A stretch of DNA of 40,001 nucleotides, from positions 1 through 40,001 of the forward strand of contig JAFZYE010000012.1 of the NCBI GenBank assembly GCA_017616445.1. Direction: 5' to 3'. Both the position numbers and the translations under genes were made by a program. Under the pieces are notes generated by a model. That model was not told where the DNA came from. It did not search any database and was given only the letters and a program-made list of their open reading frames with translations. Within the stretch, counting starts at the first letter, position 1. Each line of letters opens with the position of its first letter. This document shows positions 19,404 to 25,535 of this stretch, piece after piece. Origin of the DNA: Bacteroidaceae bacterium. GTDB taxonomy: Bacteria > Bacteroidota > Bacteroidia > Bacteroidales > Bacteroidaceae.

Positions 19404-20965
19404 TTAGGCTCTATCAGATTCAGCATTTTGATAGTTGCCTTGATGGCCGCTTCTGTCTGGTCGGCATCAAGTCCGCGAGTGCGATAAGCCTTTTCTTCGT
19501 AAGTCCATGAGATGGATGTCTGAACGAGGGCATCGGTACGTCCTCCAGGTGGAATGGTCACTACGTAGTTGGTGAGCCAAGGGAACGGACGATGTAGTTT
19601 GTCGCGATAGATGTGGCGCACACAATGCACAAAGGCATCGTACATACCGTCACCCATGGCCGATTCCTCGTACACCTCTCCATTCACTTCGAGTTTCACA
19701 CTTGCCATAGGTTTCAGACCATAGGCCGTGCTGACCATATAGCTGAGCAACTTGACTTTCTCATCAGGGGTGGTGTGTTTGAGCACATCGCTCACGATAT
19801 AAGGCAAGTCCTCTTGCGTCACTATCTGTTTCTTGTCGCCCAACTCGATGATACGGTCTGTCACACGGCGTGTCTGCTCAGGCGTGAGCTCAAGACCCAG
19901 TTCTTCAAGGTTCTTCAGGATGTTGGCCTTGCCTGAGTTCTTCCCCAGTGCATATTCGCGCTTTCTCCCAAACCTCTCTGGAAGCAGGTCGTTGCAATAC
20001 AGGTTGTTCTTGTTGTCGCCATCGGCATGTACGCCTGCCACCTGTGTGAAGACATTCTCGCCGATGATAGGTTTGTTCGATGGGATTGCGATGCCTGAGT
20101 AGCTCTCGATGAGGTGACTGACTTCGTTGAGTTTTACCTCGTTGATGTTGGTATGTACGCCCAACTGATCTTTCAGAATGGCTTGTACACTGCTGAGTGG
20201 TGCATTGCCTGCTCGCTCTCCCAATCCGTTGACAGAGGTGTGTACACCCTTACAACCCTCTACGACAGCAGCCATCACGTTGGCAGTTGCCAGGTCGTAG
20301 TCGTTGTGTGCGTGGAAGTCGAAATGCAATTGAGGGAATCGCTCCACCATCTGACGGACATAATCCTTGGTCTGCATGGGGTTGAGCACTCCGAGTGTGT
20401 CGGGAAGCATGAAACGTATCACCCCGGCATCCTTGAGTGCATCAACGAAACGGAACACATAATCGGCATTGTCTTTCATGCCGTTGCTCCAGTCCTCAAG
20501 GTAGATGTTGACAGAAATACCTTTCTGATGGGCATAGTCGATGGAATGGCGGATGTCGTTGAGATGCTCGTCGAGTGTCTTCTTCAACTGATATACGCAA
20601 TGGCGCTCACTGCCCTTGCACAGGAGGTTGACCACCTTGCATTCGCAGTCGTTGATCCAGTCAATTGATGTGGTGCCGTCAACAAATCCCAACACCTCCA
20701 CTCTGTCCAACTTGTCTGCCATACGAGCCCATTTGCAGATGCTGCGCACAGCTTCTTTCTCCCCGTCGGACACACGAGCTGATGCAACCTCGATACGGTC
20801 AACGTTGAGGTCTTGCAGTAACATGCGAGCCACGATGAGCTTCTCGTGTGGAACGAACGACACTCCGTTGGTCTGTTCACCATCTCGGAGGGTCGTGTCC
20901 ATGATTTCGACAGACCCACTAACCCCCTTTAGGGGGAATTTTTGACTATTATTGTTCACTGACAT
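19397..20965 (-). CDS. cimA: (R)-citramalate synthase-like (2-isopropylmalate synthase family) enzyme
   Basis: 522 residues from ATG 20965; the frame stays open to a TTG at 20992, not needed. It contains the family signature [10 protein letters not shown], the metal-binding HAHNDYDLA, GLGERAGN, and a C-terminal LeuA-type regulatory domain ending in PPGGRTDALV. Stretches such as LGFVDG, VNLLCKGS and NIYLEDWSNG resemble those of Leptospira citramalate synthase, from memory, rather than LeuA. That would condense acetyl-CoA with pyruvate to start isoleucine synthesis, with LeuCD and LeuB as shared later enzymes. A second isopropylmalate synthase remains possible. The N-terminus (residues 10-18, PLKGVSGS) is encoded by a palindromic repeat. 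Confidence 0.8.
   Translation of the reverse strand: MSVNNNSQKFPLKGVSGSVEIMDTTLRDGEQTNGVSFVPHEKLIVARMLLQDLNVDRIEVASARVSDGEKEAVRSICKWARMADKLDRVEVLGFVDGTTSIDWINDCECKVVNLLCKGSERHCVYQLKKTLDEHLNDIRHSIDYAHQKGISVNIYLEDWSNGMKDNADYVFRFVDALKDAGVIRFMLPDTLGVLNPMQTKDYVRQMVERFPQLHFDFHAHNDYDLATANVMAAVVEGCKGVHTSVNGLGERAGNAPLSSVQAILKDQLGVHTNINEVKLNEVSHLIESYSGIAIPSNKPIIGENVFTQVAGVHADGDNKNNLYCNDLLPERFGRKREYALGKNSGKANILKNLEELGLELTPEQTRRVTDRIIELGDKKQIVTQEDLPYIVSDVLKHTTPDEKVKLLSYMVSTAYGLKPMASVKLEVNGEVYEESAMGDGMYDAFVHCVRHIYRDKLHRPFPWLTNYVVTIPPGGRTDALVQTSISWTYEEKAYRTRGLDADQTEAAIKATIKMLNLIEPNP
20913..20937 (-). repeat. Palindromic leu-operon element, copy B (inside the cimA-like gene)
   Basis: Palindrome core at 20923-20936 (CCCCCTTTAGGGGG on +). 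Read on the minus strand it continues GTTAGTGGGTC, the asymmetric tail shared by the family. It lies within codons 9-18 of the downstream enzyme and is translated as FPLKGVSGS. It forms an inverted pair with copy C. Confidence 0.88.
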
Positions 20966-20996
20966 ATTATCATTGAGTTTTTTCTTCCCCAATAAT

Positions 20997-21019
20997 GTTC
21001 TCCCTAAAGGGGGAGGGTC
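20997..21019 (+). repeat. Palindromic leu-operon element, copy C (end of leuD)
   Basis: GTTCTCCCTAAAGGGGG (20997-21013) then AGGGTC, a slightly shortened copy in the orientation opposite to copy B. On the minus strand it supplies the last residues and stop codon of LeuD (TLPL then TAG at 21004-21006). B and C can pair around the cimA-like start codon at 20963-20965. Confidence 0.82.
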
Positions 21020-21627
21020 TTCTCTTCATAAGTCTCTATCTTATCTTTATTGCTCAACAGGAAGTCGATGTCATCGTAAGCATTCATAAGACAATACTTC
21101 TTGTATGAGTTGATGTCGAAGTGCTCTGAGTGACCCGTTGCAAGATTCGTGACGGTTTGGTTGGGCACATCGACCTTGACCTGTGTCTGAGGGTCTGCAG
21201 CGATGCTGGCAAACATCTCCTGTTGGAACTCAGGAGATACGATGACAGGCAACACGAAGCAGTTGAGCAGGTTGTTGCGATGGATATCAGCAAAGCTGCT
21301 GGAGATAACTACACGTACTCCATAACCGGCAATAGCCCATGCTGCGTGTTCGCGGCTGGAACCAGACCCCCAGTTCTGACCACCTACGATGATTTCGTGA
21401 ACACCCTGGCGAGGTGCTTCACTGTAAGCAGGTTGGTTCATCACGAAGTCGGCTACTGGTTTGCCGTCTGCATCGTAGCGAAGGTCGTGCATGAAGGCAT
21501 CGCCAAAAAACTTTGGGTCACGAGTGGTGCTGGCAAGGTATCTTGCCGGAATAATCAAGTCGGTGTTGCAATTATCTATCTGAATAGGAATACAGGTAGA
21601 TTGTATGATGTTGAATTTTTCTTTCAT
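21004..21627 (-). CDS. leuD: 3-isopropylmalate dehydratase small subunit
   Basis: 207 residues from ATG 21627 (MKEKFNIIQSTCIP). The frame runs up to a TTG at 21699, but that stretch is repeat DNA and the normal LeuD N-terminus begins at the chosen ATG. LeuD forms the swivelling domain of the aconitase-like isomerase with LeuC. Visible: IPARYL near the N-terminus and GQNWGSGSSREHAAWAI, the substrate-binding loop. The final four residues (TLPL) and the stop lie in a palindromic element. Confidence 0.93.
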   Translation of the reverse strand: MKEKFNIIQSTCIPIQIDNCNTDLIIPARYLASTTRDPKFFGDAFMHDLRYDADGKPVADFVMNQPAYSEAPRQGVHEIIVGGQNWGSGSSREHAAWAIAGYGVRVVISSSFADIHRNNLLNCFVLPVIVSPEFQQEMFASIAADPQTQVKVDVPNQTVTNLATGHSEHFDINSYKKYCLMNAYDDIDFLLSNKDKIETYEEKTLPL

Positions 21628-21670
21628 AATAAATTGTCTTGAACTTTGTTCTTCTCTGTCCTCCCTTAGA

Positions 21671-21697
21671 GTTCCCTCTAAAGGGGGTTGGGGGGTC
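21671..21697 (+). repeat. Palindromic leu-operon element, copy D (leuC-leuD junction)
   Basis: GTTCCCTCTAAAGGGGG (21671-21687) followed by TTGGGGGGTC. It begins exactly at the leuC stop codon (TGA, 21698-21696 on the minus strand). A second, weaker hairpin is possible with the adjacent CTCCCTTAGAG (21661-21671). It lies in the leuC-leuD spacer and is not translated if leuD starts at 21627. Confidence 0.85.
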
Positions 21698-23159
21698 AAT
21701 TTCTTGGGTCAGTTACTACTCCAGTAATAGCACTTGCTGCAACAGTAAGCGGTGATGCAAGGATGGTGCGGGCACCTGGTCCCTGACGGCCTACGAAGTT
21801 ACGGTTCGAGGTTGAAATGGCCAATTTGCCTGCTGGTACCTTATCTGGGTTCATGGCCAGACAAGCTGAACATGAAGGCAGACGGAGTTCGAAACCTGCA
21901 TCAGCAAGAATCTTATCGATACCCTCATCAATGATTTGCTGACGAACGAGCCATGAGCCAGGTACGAGCCAAGCAACTACGTTATCGGCTTTCTTCTTTC
22001 CTTTCACCACAGAGGCAAAGGCGCGGAAGTCCTCGATGCGTCCATTGGTACATGCTCCGAGGAACACATAATCGACAGGTGTGCCTTCGAGTTTCTGTCC
22101 TGGCTGGAACTGCATATAATCGAGCATGCTGAGGAACTGACTGCGGTCGGCTTCTGGAATCTGCTCAAGGGTTGGGATGCATTCATCGACAGCGATACCA
22201 GCTCCAGGATTGGTTCCGTAAGTGATGCGAGGTGCAATGTCTTCTGCGCGATAAGTCACTTCTTTATCGAACACAGCGTCATCGTCGCTCTTCAGCTTGC
22301 GCCATTCTTCGACAGCCTTGTCCCACTCAGCACCCTTTGGTGCATATTCGCGTCCTTTGAGGTAGGCGAAAGTTGTCTCGTCTGGAGCAATCAATCCTGC
22401 ACGGCTACCCATCTCGATGCTGAGGTTACTAAGTGTCAGACGGCCTTCCATCGACATATTGCGGATGGTGCTGCCTGCATATTCTACGGCATAACCTGTA
22501 GCACCGCTGGTGGTCATCTGAGCCATGATATAGAGTGCCACATCCTTGGCTGTCACTCCTGACTTGAGTTCGCCTTCGATATTGATACGCATGGTCTTTG
22601 GCTTCGACTGCAGAATACATTGTGAAGCAAGCACCTGAGCTACCTCACTTGTACCGATACCCATTGCGATAGCACCAACAGCACCATGAGTGGAGGTGTG
22701 GGAGTCGCCGCAAACGATGGTCATGCCAGGCAACGAGAGTGCCTTTTCTGGTCCCACAACGTGGATGATACCATTGTCTTTTGTACCCATCGTGAAGTGT
22801 TTGATACCAAACTCCTCACAATTTGCTTTCAGCGTCTCTACCTGCTTACGACCAATCGGATCGTCGATACGTTCTTGTTGATCACTTGGTGTGTTATGGT
22901 CGGGCATCGCAACCACATGGTCTGGGCGGAACACCTTGATGCCCTTGTCTCTTAATGTGTCGAATGCCTGAGGACTGGTCACCTCATGTGCATACAAACG
23001 GTCGATGTACAACTGTGTAGGTCCATCTTCTACCTGCTGTACAATATGGGCATTCCAGATTTTGTCGAATAAGGACCCCCCGACCCCCTTTAGGGGGAGG
23101 GTTCCTGCACCTTTATCTCCCTTTTCGGGGAATTTGTTAATACTTTTTAATTCTGACAT
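21696..23159 (-). CDS. leuC: 3-isopropylmalate dehydratase large subunit
   Basis: 487 residues, about 20 longer than the usual 464-468. It is the 4Fe-4S aconitase-family subunit; cluster cysteines appear in FLGACTNGR and in [10 protein letters not shown]. The core normally starts near the N-terminus with LFDKIW; here LFDKIW is preceded by 29 residues ([10 protein letters not shown]..., ..PLKGVGGS) that come largely from a palindromic repeat. No in-frame ATG or GTG lies between that repeat and the core, so the extension must be translated. The ATG lies 1 nt after the DUF559 stop. Confidence 0.95.
23074..23105 (-). repeat. Palindromic leu-operon element, copy E (inside leuC)
   Basis: Core CCCCCTTTAGGGGG at 23084-23097. 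On the minus strand it reads CCCCCTAAAGGGGG then GTCGGGGGGTC and is translated as LPLKGVGGS, residues 21-29 of LeuC. A second small palindrome, CTCCCTTTTCGGGG (23118-23131), lies upstream in the same N-terminal extension. With copy F it brackets the DUF559 gene in inverted orientation. Confidence 0.88.
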
Positions 23160-23160
23160 T

Positions 23161-23544
23161 TTACTGCAAATATTTTTTTATTTCTTTAAGTACATTATCG
23201 ATATCACAGATGACTTGTTCGTTGGAAAAACGTATAACTTTGTAGCCCATCCTTTCAAGCCATTGAGTCCTTTGCTCATCGTCAATTTCTTGTATCGGTT
23301 CCGAGTGATATCCCCCATCCACTTCGACGATTAATTTACAATCAGGGCATAGGAAATCCACAATGAACTGACCAATTATGTATTGATACAGAAATTTATG
23401 TCCTAAGTTATTAGCCCGAACACAGCTCCTCAGTATTGCTTCTGCCTCTGTAGGATTGGCTCTCATCTCTTTTGCCCAATCTTTAAGTAGGGAATAATAA
23501 GCAGGATCTGCATTCTGATAAGCAAAGTGGTTATATGTGTCCAT
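23161..23544 (-). CDS. DUF559 (Vsr/PDDEXK-like) endonuclease-domain protein
   Basis: 127 residues from ATG 23544, preceded by AAAGGA at suitable distance; a GTG at 23568 would add eight residues. The DUF559 pattern is clear: [31 protein letters not shown], with Asp63, Glu74, Asp76 and His80 as likely metal-site residues, then [16 protein letters not shown]. The fold is that of very-short-patch-repair type nucleases; activity and target are unknown. It interrupts the leu operon between leuA and leuC, is bracketed by inverted copies F and E, and its stop lies 1 nt before the leuC ATG. It is a candidate mobility or maintenance factor for the palindromic element. Confidence 0.88.
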
Positions 23545-23578
23545 ACAGAGTTCATCCTTTGAGTCCACCCTCTTAAAA

Positions 23579-23606
23579 GTTCCCCCTAAAGGGGGTTAGG
23601 GGGTCC
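23579..23606 (+). repeat. Palindromic leu-operon element, copy F (leuA-DUF559 junction)
   Basis: GTTCCCCCTAAAGGGGG (23579-23595) then TTAGGGGGTCC, the copy closest to consensus. It lies between the leuA stop (23621) and the DUF559 start and is oriented opposite to copy E on the other side of the DUF559 gene. A further GGGTGGGTC tail-like motif follows. Confidence 0.88.
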
Positions 23607-23620
23607 GGGTGGGTCTTCTT

Positions 23621-25117
23621 CTACTTAAACTTATTGATACAATCAATATAAGCTTCCACTGAAGCTGTTACGATGTCGGTATTGGCACCGAATCCATAGT
23701 AGACGTGATTGTTGTATTCCACCTGCATGTGTACCTTTCCAAGGTCATCAGAACCCTTAGAGATAGCTTGAATGGTGAATTCCTTGAGGGTCATGTCGCG
23801 TTTGATGATGCGTTTCAGGCCCTTGATGGCTGCATCGACAGGACCATTTCCTGTAGCAGCTGCTTCGAAGTGCTCGTTGGCAATCTGGAGTCCGATAGAA
23901 GCCACACTGCGTACACCCTTGCCTGTTGTAACCTGTAGGTAGTCGAGTTTCACACTGTGTGCTTCAGAGCGTTCAGCACCAGCTAATACGAGGATGTCAT
24001 CATCTGTCACCTCTTTCTTCTTGTCTGCCAATTCAAGGAACTTCTGATATACCTTGTCCAACTTCTCGTCATCCACGTCAACGCCGTTGATATGCAGACG
24101 GTGTTTCAAGGCAGCACGTCCTGAACGGGCAGTCAGCACGATAGATGCTTCGTCGATACCTACATCCTTTGGATCCATGATTTCGTAGGTCGATGCGTTC
24201 TTCAGCACGCCATCCTGATGGATTCCGCTGGAGTGAGCAAATGCATTCTTGCCCACGATGGCCTTGTTGGGCTGTACAGGCATGTTCATCAGACTTGATA
24301 CCATGCGGCTTGAAGGATAGATCTTCGTTGTGTTGATATTTGTCTCGATGCCGAGGTCGGGGTGAGTCTTGAAGATCATCGCAATCTCCTCGAGCGAAGT
24401 GTTACCAGCACGTTCGCCGATTCCGTTGATGGTCACCTCCACCTGGCGTGCACCAGCCAGCACACCTGCTACGGTGTTGGCAGTTGCCATACCTAAGTCG
24501 TTGTGACAGTGGGTTGACAGAATAGACTTACCTGCAGCGAATGCATCGACATGCTCATACAGATATTTTATCTTCTCATGGTACTCGTTCGGAATTCTGA
24601 AACCAGTTGTGTCAGGGATGTTACAAACGGTAGCACCAGCCTTGGTGACAGCATCGATGACACGTGCCAGATATTCGTTGTCTGTACGTCCTGCGTCTTC
24701 TGCATAGAACTCTACATCGTCTACAAAGCGACGTGCATACTTTACTGCAGCAACAGCACGTTCGATGATTTCCTCACGGTTGCTGTTGAATTTGTACTTG
24801 ATGTGCGAGTCGCTCGTGCCGATACCCGTATGAATACGTTTGTGCTTGGCATACTGCAATGCCTCGACTGCTACATCGATGTCTTTCTCGACGGCACGTG
24901 TCAGCGCACAGATTGTTGGCCAAGTCACAGCCTTCGATATCTCAATAACTGAGTTGTAGTCGCCTGGGCTGGAGATAGGGAATCCAGCCTCAATGACATC
25001 CACTCCGAGCAGCTCAAGCTGCTTTGCAACTTGAATTTTCTCTACCGTGTTGAGCTGGCACCCTGGCACCTGCTCACCATCACGCAATGTCGTGTCAAAA
25101 ATAAATAATCTGTCCAT
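23621..25117 (-). CDS. leuA: 2-isopropylmalate synthase
   Basis: 498 residues. First committed step of leucine synthesis, acetyl-CoA plus 2-oxoisovalerate. The N-terminal TIM barrel starts [17 protein letters not shown] and includes [14 protein letters not shown] and [13 protein letters not shown]; the C-terminal LeuA dimer domain for leucine feedback is present from about residue 370. First structural gene of the operon, placed 44 nt after the attenuator terminator, so its expression should follow the leader peptide. Confidence 0.96.
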
Positions 25118-25156
25118 TTATCTTAATTTTGAATGATCAGTTATAAAATATAGATT

Positions 25157-25192
25157 AAACAAAGCCCCTCTCGCTCGGAGCAAGAAAGGCTT
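25157..25192 (-). terminator. Leader terminator (attenuator) of the leu operon
   Basis: On the minus strand AAGCCTTTCTTGC (25192-25180) pairs with GCGAGAGGGGCTT (25174-25162): 13 bp with G-U pairs, loop TCCGA, then TTTGTTT (about 25163-25157). It lies between the leader peptide and leuA. Its left arm can instead pair with the leader-peptide segment 25243-25262. Confidence 0.88.
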
Positions 25193-25262
25193 ATATCTGT
25201 TTTCTATTTCGCATTGTACATTATCAATTATGCATTACATACAGGCCTCTCTCACTCCGAGC
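25173..25262 (-). promoter_or_regulatory. Antiterminator pairing of the leu leader
   Basis: The minus-strand segment 25262-25243, at the end of the leader-peptide frame, is complementary to 25192-25173 at 19 of 20 positions (including G-U). The latter segment contains the left arm of the terminator, so the two structures exclude each other. A ribosome stalled early in the leader leaves 25262-25243 free to pair and block termination; a ribosome reaching the stop codon covers it. This is the classical attenuation layout. Confidence 0.82.
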
Positions 25263-25312
25263 TTACTAAGTCGAAGTGATAGGATAATGCCGATGATGCT
25301 AATAGAATTCAT
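25235..25312 (-). CDS. Leu operon leader peptide, Ile/Leu-rich
   Basis: 25-codon ORF, ATG at 25312-25310 and TAA at 25237-25235, about 16 nt after the predicted transcription start. It begins MNSISIIGIILSLRL and contains five Ile, four Leu and one Val codons, clustered in the first 20 positions. AAGG lies one base before the ATG. Its last codons overlap the antiterminator segment. It is expected to sense charged tRNA-Ile and tRNA-Leu for the downstream operon. Confidence 0.85.
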   Translation of the reverse strand: MNSISIIGIILSLRLSKLGVREACM

Positions 25313-25334
25313 ACCTTATTCTTAAAATCGACTG

Positions 25335-25365
25335 CAAAATTACACTATTTTGTGCATTCTACAAA
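25335..25365 (-). promoter_or_regulatory. Bacteroidota promoter of the leu operon
   Basis: On the minus strand TTTG (25365-25362), 19 bp, then TAATTTTG (25342-25335), an exact match to TAnnTTTG at consensus spacing. Transcription should start near 25328, just before the leader peptide. Confidence 0.88.
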
Positions 25366-25445
25366 ATAAAAGACAAAGAAAATGCACTTTTTTCTGTCAA
25401 TTTGCCACTTATGGCCCGTTTGTGTCTTTCTTGCAGCACATTTTT

Positions 25446-25485
25446 GCAGCCCCTAAGGGTTGCAATTGTTTCCCTTAGGGGCTGC
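25446..25485. repeat. 14-bp perfect inverted repeat upstream of the leu promoter
   Basis: GCAGCCCCTAAGGG (25446-25459) and CCCTTAGGGGCTGC (25472-25485) are exact inverted repeats around a 12-nt centre. It lies just after the end of the HD-domain gene and may help stop its transcript, though there is no T-run on that strand. The motif resembles the 22-bp array at 33965-34033. The 418-bp gap 25118-25535 otherwise holds the leu leader and promoter. Confidence 0.75.
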
Positions 25486-25535
25486 ACGTTTTTCCTCCTC
25501 GAGTCAGCAAATGTTTACCTTATTATATATAAGCT

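Follow-up and report, generated by a model that had tools for sequence, protein, structure and literature searches.

We find that the window, by which we mean the whole 40,001-nucleotide stretch analysed here (Bacteroidaceae bacterium, contig JAFZYE010000012.1 of assembly GCA_017616445.1), carries in its leu operon a gene for a DUF559 nuclease set between two inverted copies of one palindrome, and that the same layout recurs at DUF559 genes of many other genomes. The DUF559 family is common in bacteria; a structure has been solved (3hrl), but the role of the family is unsettled. A nuclease enclosed by matching palindromes, able to sit in frame inside genes, suggests an as yet undescribed kind of selfish genetic element. 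We regard it as rather probable that the segment is such a selfish unit, in which a nuclease resembling Vsr and the homing endonucleases recognizes its own terminal palindromes, and that these palindromes also spread without the nuclease. This reading builds on comparisons of sequence, through which we trace the unit and its orientation, the match between its left and right ends, the co-variation of palindrome and nuclease, purifying selection, sites that are empty, filled or decayed, and placement in frame.

The DUF559 protein of the window scores 109.8 bits against the Pfam DUF559 profile (cut-off 20.6; scanned from residue 2), and its neighbours leuA, leuC and leuD exceed their NCBIfam cut-offs. 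Coordinates, Pfam and NCBIfam thus agree with the initial annotation, which had placed a DUF559 gene between leuA and leuC, flanked by inverted copies of one palindrome. The exact core CCCCCTAAAGGGGG stands at 23084-23097 (minus strand) and 23582-23595 (plus strand). Allowing up to three mismatches, the core has 11 matches in the window (five sites counted on both strands and one poor match) against 1.09 expected, a number reached by 0 of 100 shuffles. The asymmetric tail that had been claimed is present; its proposed form, GTTnGGGGGGTC, describes it less well than the consensus GTYRGGGGGTC, because copy F has GTTAGGGGGTC and copy E has GTCGGGGGGTC. Likewise, the segment lies where it had been placed, at 23074..23606 between leuA and leuC, but the unit extends to 23615 and copy E falls within the leuC frame. 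The whole unit spans about 540 bp, from approximately 23074 to 23615, with its G-rich tails facing outwards. The features of the locus are:

23161..23544, minus strand: DUF559 (PF04480) PD-(D/E)XK-type nuclease gene, 127 residues, assigned by the Pfam profile and invariant acidic columns.
23074..23097, minus strand: element E, core and tail, the right unit end in the leu sense, within the leuC frame.
23582..23605, plus strand: element F, core and tail, the left unit end in the leu sense.
23607..23615, plus strand: second outer tail GGGTGGGTC, the outermost end of the unit, beside the leuA stop.
21696..23159, minus strand: leuC (NCBIfam), with a 28-residue N-terminal extension supplied by the unit.
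23621..25117, minus strand: leuA (NCBIfam), next to the unit on its upstream side and ending in a stop codon 5 bp from it.
21674..21699, plus strand: nuclease-less copy at leuC-leuD (1 mismatch), which provides the leuC stop; its partner half is decayed.
20923..20936, minus strand: nuclease-less copy at leuD-X (exact core), in frame with the N-terminus of the downstream gene.
21000..21013, plus strand: inverted partner of the copy at 20923 (1 mismatch), after a gap of 63 bp.

Copy E encodes part of a new LeuC N-terminus that replaces the native start. The leuC profile match begins at residue 29 of the window LeuC, and LeuC of a genome of the same genus (G006) starts MKTLFDKIW, without the unit-encoded N-terminus. 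The three additional nuclease-less copies that had been reported at the next two leu junctions are those at 20923, 21000 and 21674; the first two form a nuclease-less two-ended derivative, and at the point of the third, leuC-leuD, G006 has no copy.

How general is this unit? DUF559 is patchily distributed, being present in 10/17 genomes of the genus, 49/151 of the family and 109/198 of the phylum. Among 78 named DUF559 loci, hairpins lie within 200 bp of the gene on both sides in 66, upstream only in 2, downstream only in 8 and on neither side in 2; they are what remains of 80 named loci, the top 80 among the 569 confirmed matches listed, once two with less than 200 bp of flank are omitted. 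Hairpin density is 10.2 per kb within 75 bp of DUF559 and 0.38-0.76 beyond 300 bp. As a control, 782 other open reading frames of the same 80 loci have a hairpin on one side in 104 cases and on both sides in 10, a count restricted to CCC-containing hairpins and permitting 30 bp of overlap with the reading frame, two conditions that the 78-locus count lacks. The larger set of 172 distinct loci, all from Bacteroidota except one record titled Saccharibacteria, has GC-rich hairpins on both sides in 133, on one side in 30 and on neither in 9. Genes of this set were located by tblastn, because a motif search placed the gene in only 27/40 stretches, and 26 of 198 candidates were dropped (2 without a hit, 3 short, 6 cut, 15 duplicates). 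The two hairpins of one unit match as inverted copies in 126/133; tails face outwards in 113 of 145 elements and inwards in 4, and the outer ends, among 113 scored of the 145, read GGGGC in 66, GGGTC in 28 and TGGGC in 14, the rest being rarer variants. The nuclease with terminal palindromes, as initially proposed, is therefore a recurring unit, and the shuffles together with the control reading frames exclude chance or local clustering as the cause of the palindromes around DUF559. The DNA folding energy is unremarkable for two of three elements. An Rfam scan of window positions 20500-25500 gave one weak, sub-threshold hit that overlaps none of the elements, and a known Rfam element was set aside as their identity.

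Stems vary between units, yet the two ends of one unit agree: the end-match score is 21.1 within a unit, versus 14.5 when ends at the same site of different genomes are compared and 11.7 across sites (0/5000 permutations). Palindrome similarity tracks nuclease similarity over those 66 loci that have hairpins on both sides (Mantel r 0.59, and 0.52 when only pairs from different sites are compared; 0/2000 permutations). Palindromes at a distance of 1-10 kb are closer to those of the local unit than to those of other units (18.1 versus 13.9; 0/2000; 100 of 102 distal hairpins scored). Shared descent contributes to all these similarity figures, as it does to the genus counts below. The nuclease is under purifying selection, as estimated from the only six pairs with a synonymous divergence of 0.05-1.2 and at least 95 codons. 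Units of the same genome are mostly divergent (mean nuclease identity 0.52 over 71 pairs, from 58 units in 31 genomes); the nuclease therefore does not proliferate in the manner of an insertion sequence, and in this respect the initial annotation is not borne out as written. The closest same-genome pair, in the leu operon of G004 (L021 and L026), has 89% nuclease identity, and one of its copies contains an internal stop. A near-identical palindrome is common to 0/71 same-genome pairs, against a matched between-genome rate of 23/1421; because about one shared pair would be expected among 71, palindrome orthogonality within genomes is not significant and is not proposed.

The host genome of the window (G000; 2.38 Mb, incomplete, 70% complete) has 70 copies of the exact core, plus one variant palindrome, and 44 of the cores carry the tail. 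The proposal of non-autonomous derivatives holds in that nuclease-less copies are many, but most are solitary rather than two-ended, since in the 40 own-genome stretches read, 37 of 42 exact cores stand without another hairpin in the 450 bp to their inner side; some two-ended nuclease-less copies are present. Within the genus, the window core plus tail occurs in 4/17 genomes (G000 44, G006 8, G011 2, G012 1). It is not evenly present among the seven that lack a DUF559 match: six of them have no copy, the exception being G006, with eight copies in a genome that is 62% complete. The palindrome of a second DUF559 unit occurs only in G000 among the 17, at 8 places, of which the unit itself accounts for 3, and that of a G004 unit in five (G004 14, G011 5, G012 4, G013 3, G000 3); G013 has no DUF559 match but does have a DUF559 remnant. 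Palindrome families of the genus thus mostly accompany their nuclease or its remnants, G006 excepted.

We considered Y1 transposases (RAYT/IS200-type; RAYT, tyrosine transposase associated with repetitive extragenic palindromes, REPs) as the partner of these palindromes. Y1 genes were found in 6/17 genus genomes and in none of G006, G011 and G012, which carry palindromes; G004 and G013 have palindromes together with a Y1 gene. Within 400 bp of nine of the ten Y1 matches there are either other hairpins or no hairpins; the tenth (L339) has a C-rich hairpin 321 bp off. With different hairpins at Y1 genes and no Y1 found in three palindrome-bearing genomes, this candidate was rejected. The Y1 transposases of G000 (L337) and G004 (L338) are flanked by a hairpin of the form GATAGGGC-loop-GCCCTATC, a separate and probably classical REP-type partner.

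These observations bear on an alternative in which the palindromes came first, as repeats that owe their movement to another agent, DUF559 being a homing nuclease for which they are no more than landing sites. Its predicted fold is indeed like that of a homing endonuclease, solitary palindromes are more numerous than nuclease units, and in Sphingomonas and Pseudanabaena a whole palindrome pair stands on each side, as if the gene had entered between two repeats. However, palindrome sequence follows nuclease sequence across sites, palindrome families of the genus mostly go with a nuclease or its remnants (G006 again excepted), and the one Y1 gene found in the host genome adjoins a different hairpin. 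We consider this alternative unlikely, though it deserves more weight than the two discussed below.

The comparison of leu operons that had been suggested as a check showed that one junction can be empty, filled or partly deleted, and that some operons lack the segment. Among thirteen leu regions, the leuA-leuC junction of G006 is empty (LeuA 97% identical), those of G012 and G004 hold different DUF559 units, those of G013 and G014 deleted units, that of G011 a short nuclease-less remnant, and those of G003 and G015 a left-end remnant. Aligned with G006 at this one junction, G000 lacks about ten native bases and has no target duplication. The leuD-X junction of G006 is not virgin, because a short tail remnant is left there. 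Elsewhere, insertion sites recur among the named loci: leuC 4 times, argC 12, argG 7, a 2-oxoacid oxidoreductase junction 19, and others. Gene names checked by NCBIfam are leuA, leuC, leuD, metH, recG, ileS, hutU and leuS; argC, argG, cysS, the 2-oxoacid oxidoreductase and other site labels are presumptive, assigned by motif. Placed on a tree of 78 nucleases, 17 site labels require 26 changes, between the minimum of 16 and a shuffled mean of 53.4; units therefore remain at their sites over time and also relocate to others.

In 72 of the 76 loci that have a downstream hairpin, the right unit end is open in frame with the downstream gene. A whole unit stands in frame inside metH (L110, L157, L163, L166), recG (L159) and ileS (L160) of other Bacteroidota, inside hutU of the record titled Saccharibacteria (L121) and inside leuS (L169, L172). 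In seven of these interrupted frames (L110, L159, L160, L121, L166, L169, L172) the host protein exceeds its NCBIfam cut-off in two stretches around the insert; L166 and L169 retain no strict hairpin. The metH linker is 26-29 residues long in empty genomes versus 159-196 in filled ones, with empty and filled members of one genus in two cases (G390 and G193; G177 and G388), and in G240, whose genus includes two empty genomes, it is a 41-residue remnant without the nuclease. Intein-like splicing was rejected, as by inspection, made with no intein profile, the inserts have only short palindrome-encoded linkers around the nuclease. A further gene, resembling a DNA methylase, contains DUF559 in frame (L183); its label as a type I methylase is unconfirmed, NCBIfam having given no match at 1e-40, and we do not claim it.

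Could DUF559 instead be a Vsr-like host enzyme of mismatch repair or DNA maintenance, and the palindromes ordinary regulatory or terminator hairpins? Patchy presence (49/151 family genomes), many insertion sites, matched inverted ends, inserts in metH, ileS, recG, hutU and leuS and the co-variation of nuclease and palindrome all speak against this, and we give it very little credence. Hardly more probable is a role in restraint, by which DUF559 would trim or remove hairpins that harm replication and be retained next to what it acts on. Purifying selection on the nuclease and its being less numerous than the palindromes would suit such a role, yet it leaves unexplained the inverted ends exactly flanking the gene, the moves from site to site and the insertion in frame, and 6/7 genus genomes without DUF559 have no window palindrome.

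Given the selfish-unit reading, we infer cleavage, cognate recognition, movement of palindromes by DUF559 and copying by host repair, as follows. DUF559 would recognize its cognate palindrome, either in cruciform shape or folded into a single-stranded hairpin where the replication fork passes, and would nick or cut there. Host repair would then copy the unit, or a lone palindrome, into the break, in a homing-like manner. The nuclease would stay rare and spread mainly between genomes, and palindromes would accumulate in trans. Because no stop interrupts its ends in the reading frame used, the unit may survive at gene starts, which it furnishes with another start codon, and also within loops of conserved proteins.

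Numbered from residue 2, E34, D62, E73, D75 and H79 of the nuclease are invariant in 62 aligned rows, and the same columns are so in a 29-row alignment; by analogy with the PD-(D/E)XK fold the acidic residues would be catalytic. The predicted fold is nearest to N. gonorrhoeae NGO0050 (3hrl), the closest solved structure, titled only as a putative endonuclease-like protein, and then to the homing endonuclease I-Bth0305I and to Vsr. A first, alignment-free structure prediction was poor (predicted local distance difference test 57) and was not used. A PADLOC scan returned weak matches only (best DpdF, 1.9e-7; homing endonuclease, 1.7e-4), and a defence-gene identity was rejected.

How does the unit relate to known systems? 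RAYTs are single-copy genes flanked by REPs. REPs and REPINs are short multi-copy palindromes whose nuclease-less copies spread in trans (PMC3116915), and the unit is alike in its many short palindromes, in families that may each be tied to a nuclease gene and in nuclease-less copies. It differs in having a PD-(D/E)XK nuclease in place of a Y1 HUH transposase, ends of GGGTC or GGGC against the GTAG or CGTC tags given in PMC3733652, own-genome copies that are mostly solitary instead of doublets, and many copies in frame with genes. It does not belong to RAYT/REP by nuclease type, by end tags or, in its own genome, by doublet form; the analogy would concern a way of working, with an unrelated nuclease. 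Analogy to the EDxHD homing endonucleases, a label applied to a DUF559 gene in PMC9403480, rests on a predicted fold like the I-Bth0305I catalytic domain and on empty and filled alleles; unlike homing endonuclease genes, the unit carries its own inverted palindromes and has many nuclease-less copies, and by inspection its in-frame inserts leave no room for an intein domain. Rickettsia palindromic elements are likewise read in frame within coding genes (PMC10969869), but here an intact nuclease lies between the palindromes. Vsr shares the predicted fold, and Caulobacter VsrA has a DUF559 domain; in PMC12907096 both are described as mismatch repair enzymes, and the word palindrome is absent from its main text. 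Inverted ends and internal-deletion derivatives (G013 leuA-leuC, G240 metH) recall insertion sequences and miniature inverted-repeat transposable elements, but DUF559 is the only gene seen in the unit, and the one leuA-leuC junction aligned has no target duplication. Searches of the open-access literature, judged mostly by title or the start of the abstract, gave no description joining DUF559 or YcjD with palindromes.

Outside Bacteroidota, 13 loci hand-chosen from 49 matching records of a plasmid collection, a small and non-random sample, have strict hairpins on both sides in 6 (Picosynechococcus, Azospirillum lipoferum, Sphingomonas, Sinorhizobium meliloti, Deinococcus proteolyticus, Pseudanabaena), on one side in 6 (N. 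gonorrhoeae and Synechocystis, imperfect on the other side; A. brasilense; Sinorhizobium K101; Methylobacterium; Photobacterium) and only imperfect ones in E. coli ycjD. Four DUF559 genes on viral contigs lack such a pair, one of them having a single unrelated hairpin. We offer as a tentative suggestion, with slightly less than even confidence, that DUF559 proteins are dedicated partners of pan-bacterial palindromes rich in GC. Together they would make up a second system of the REP kind, in which a homing-endonuclease-type PD-(D/E)XK nuclease takes the place of the Y1 transposase. If so, many untagged repeats of Bacteroidota, Alphaproteobacteria, cyanobacteria and Deinococcus, and perhaps of enterobacteria (E. 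coli ycjD), would be accounted for, as would palindromes read in frame inside proteins. If DUF559 drives the palindromes, repeats of unknown mover would gain a partner, and the REP/RAYT problem a second, independent solution; the many natural pairs of nuclease and palindrome would each reveal, in the flanks of the gene, what the nuclease targets. The unit also illustrates how a nuclease gene may come to lie in frame within conserved, even essential, genes, rewriting protein termini and linkers.

In E. coli, the DUF559 gene ycjD (L075, L080) lies between sapF and fabI, with imperfect GC-rich palindromes of the ACCCTCTCCCTGAAAGGGCGAGGGGGC type downstream and an unrelated long hairpin upstream. 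Of 5426 E. coli genomes, 3364 cover the ycjD region. A clean empty site was not obtained, because other genes fill sapF-fabI in the four ycjD-less genomes opened (see also PMC12817139), and E. coli was dropped as a source of strain-level empty sites.

Several loci have layouts of their own. On Deinococcus proteolyticus plasmid pDEIPR03 (L202) the unit sits in an hpa gene cluster, and its inverted repeat reaches well past the palindromes, with GGCCAGCGTTGCTG on both outer sides. Sphingomonas (L199) and Pseudanabaena (L203) have an inverted palindrome pair on each side of DUF559, two pairs in total. In N. gonorrhoeae (L076) a similar palindrome stands on both sides in direct, not inverted, orientation. 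On two cyanobacterial plasmids (L077, L078) DUF559 adjoins a DUF1156 gene. In the window itself, the leader before the first leu gene (25140-25330) contains repeated motifs of the CTCGCTCGGAGC/GCTCCGAGCGAG type, found likewise upstream of leuC in G005, G008 and G010, and this leader may be an attenuator.
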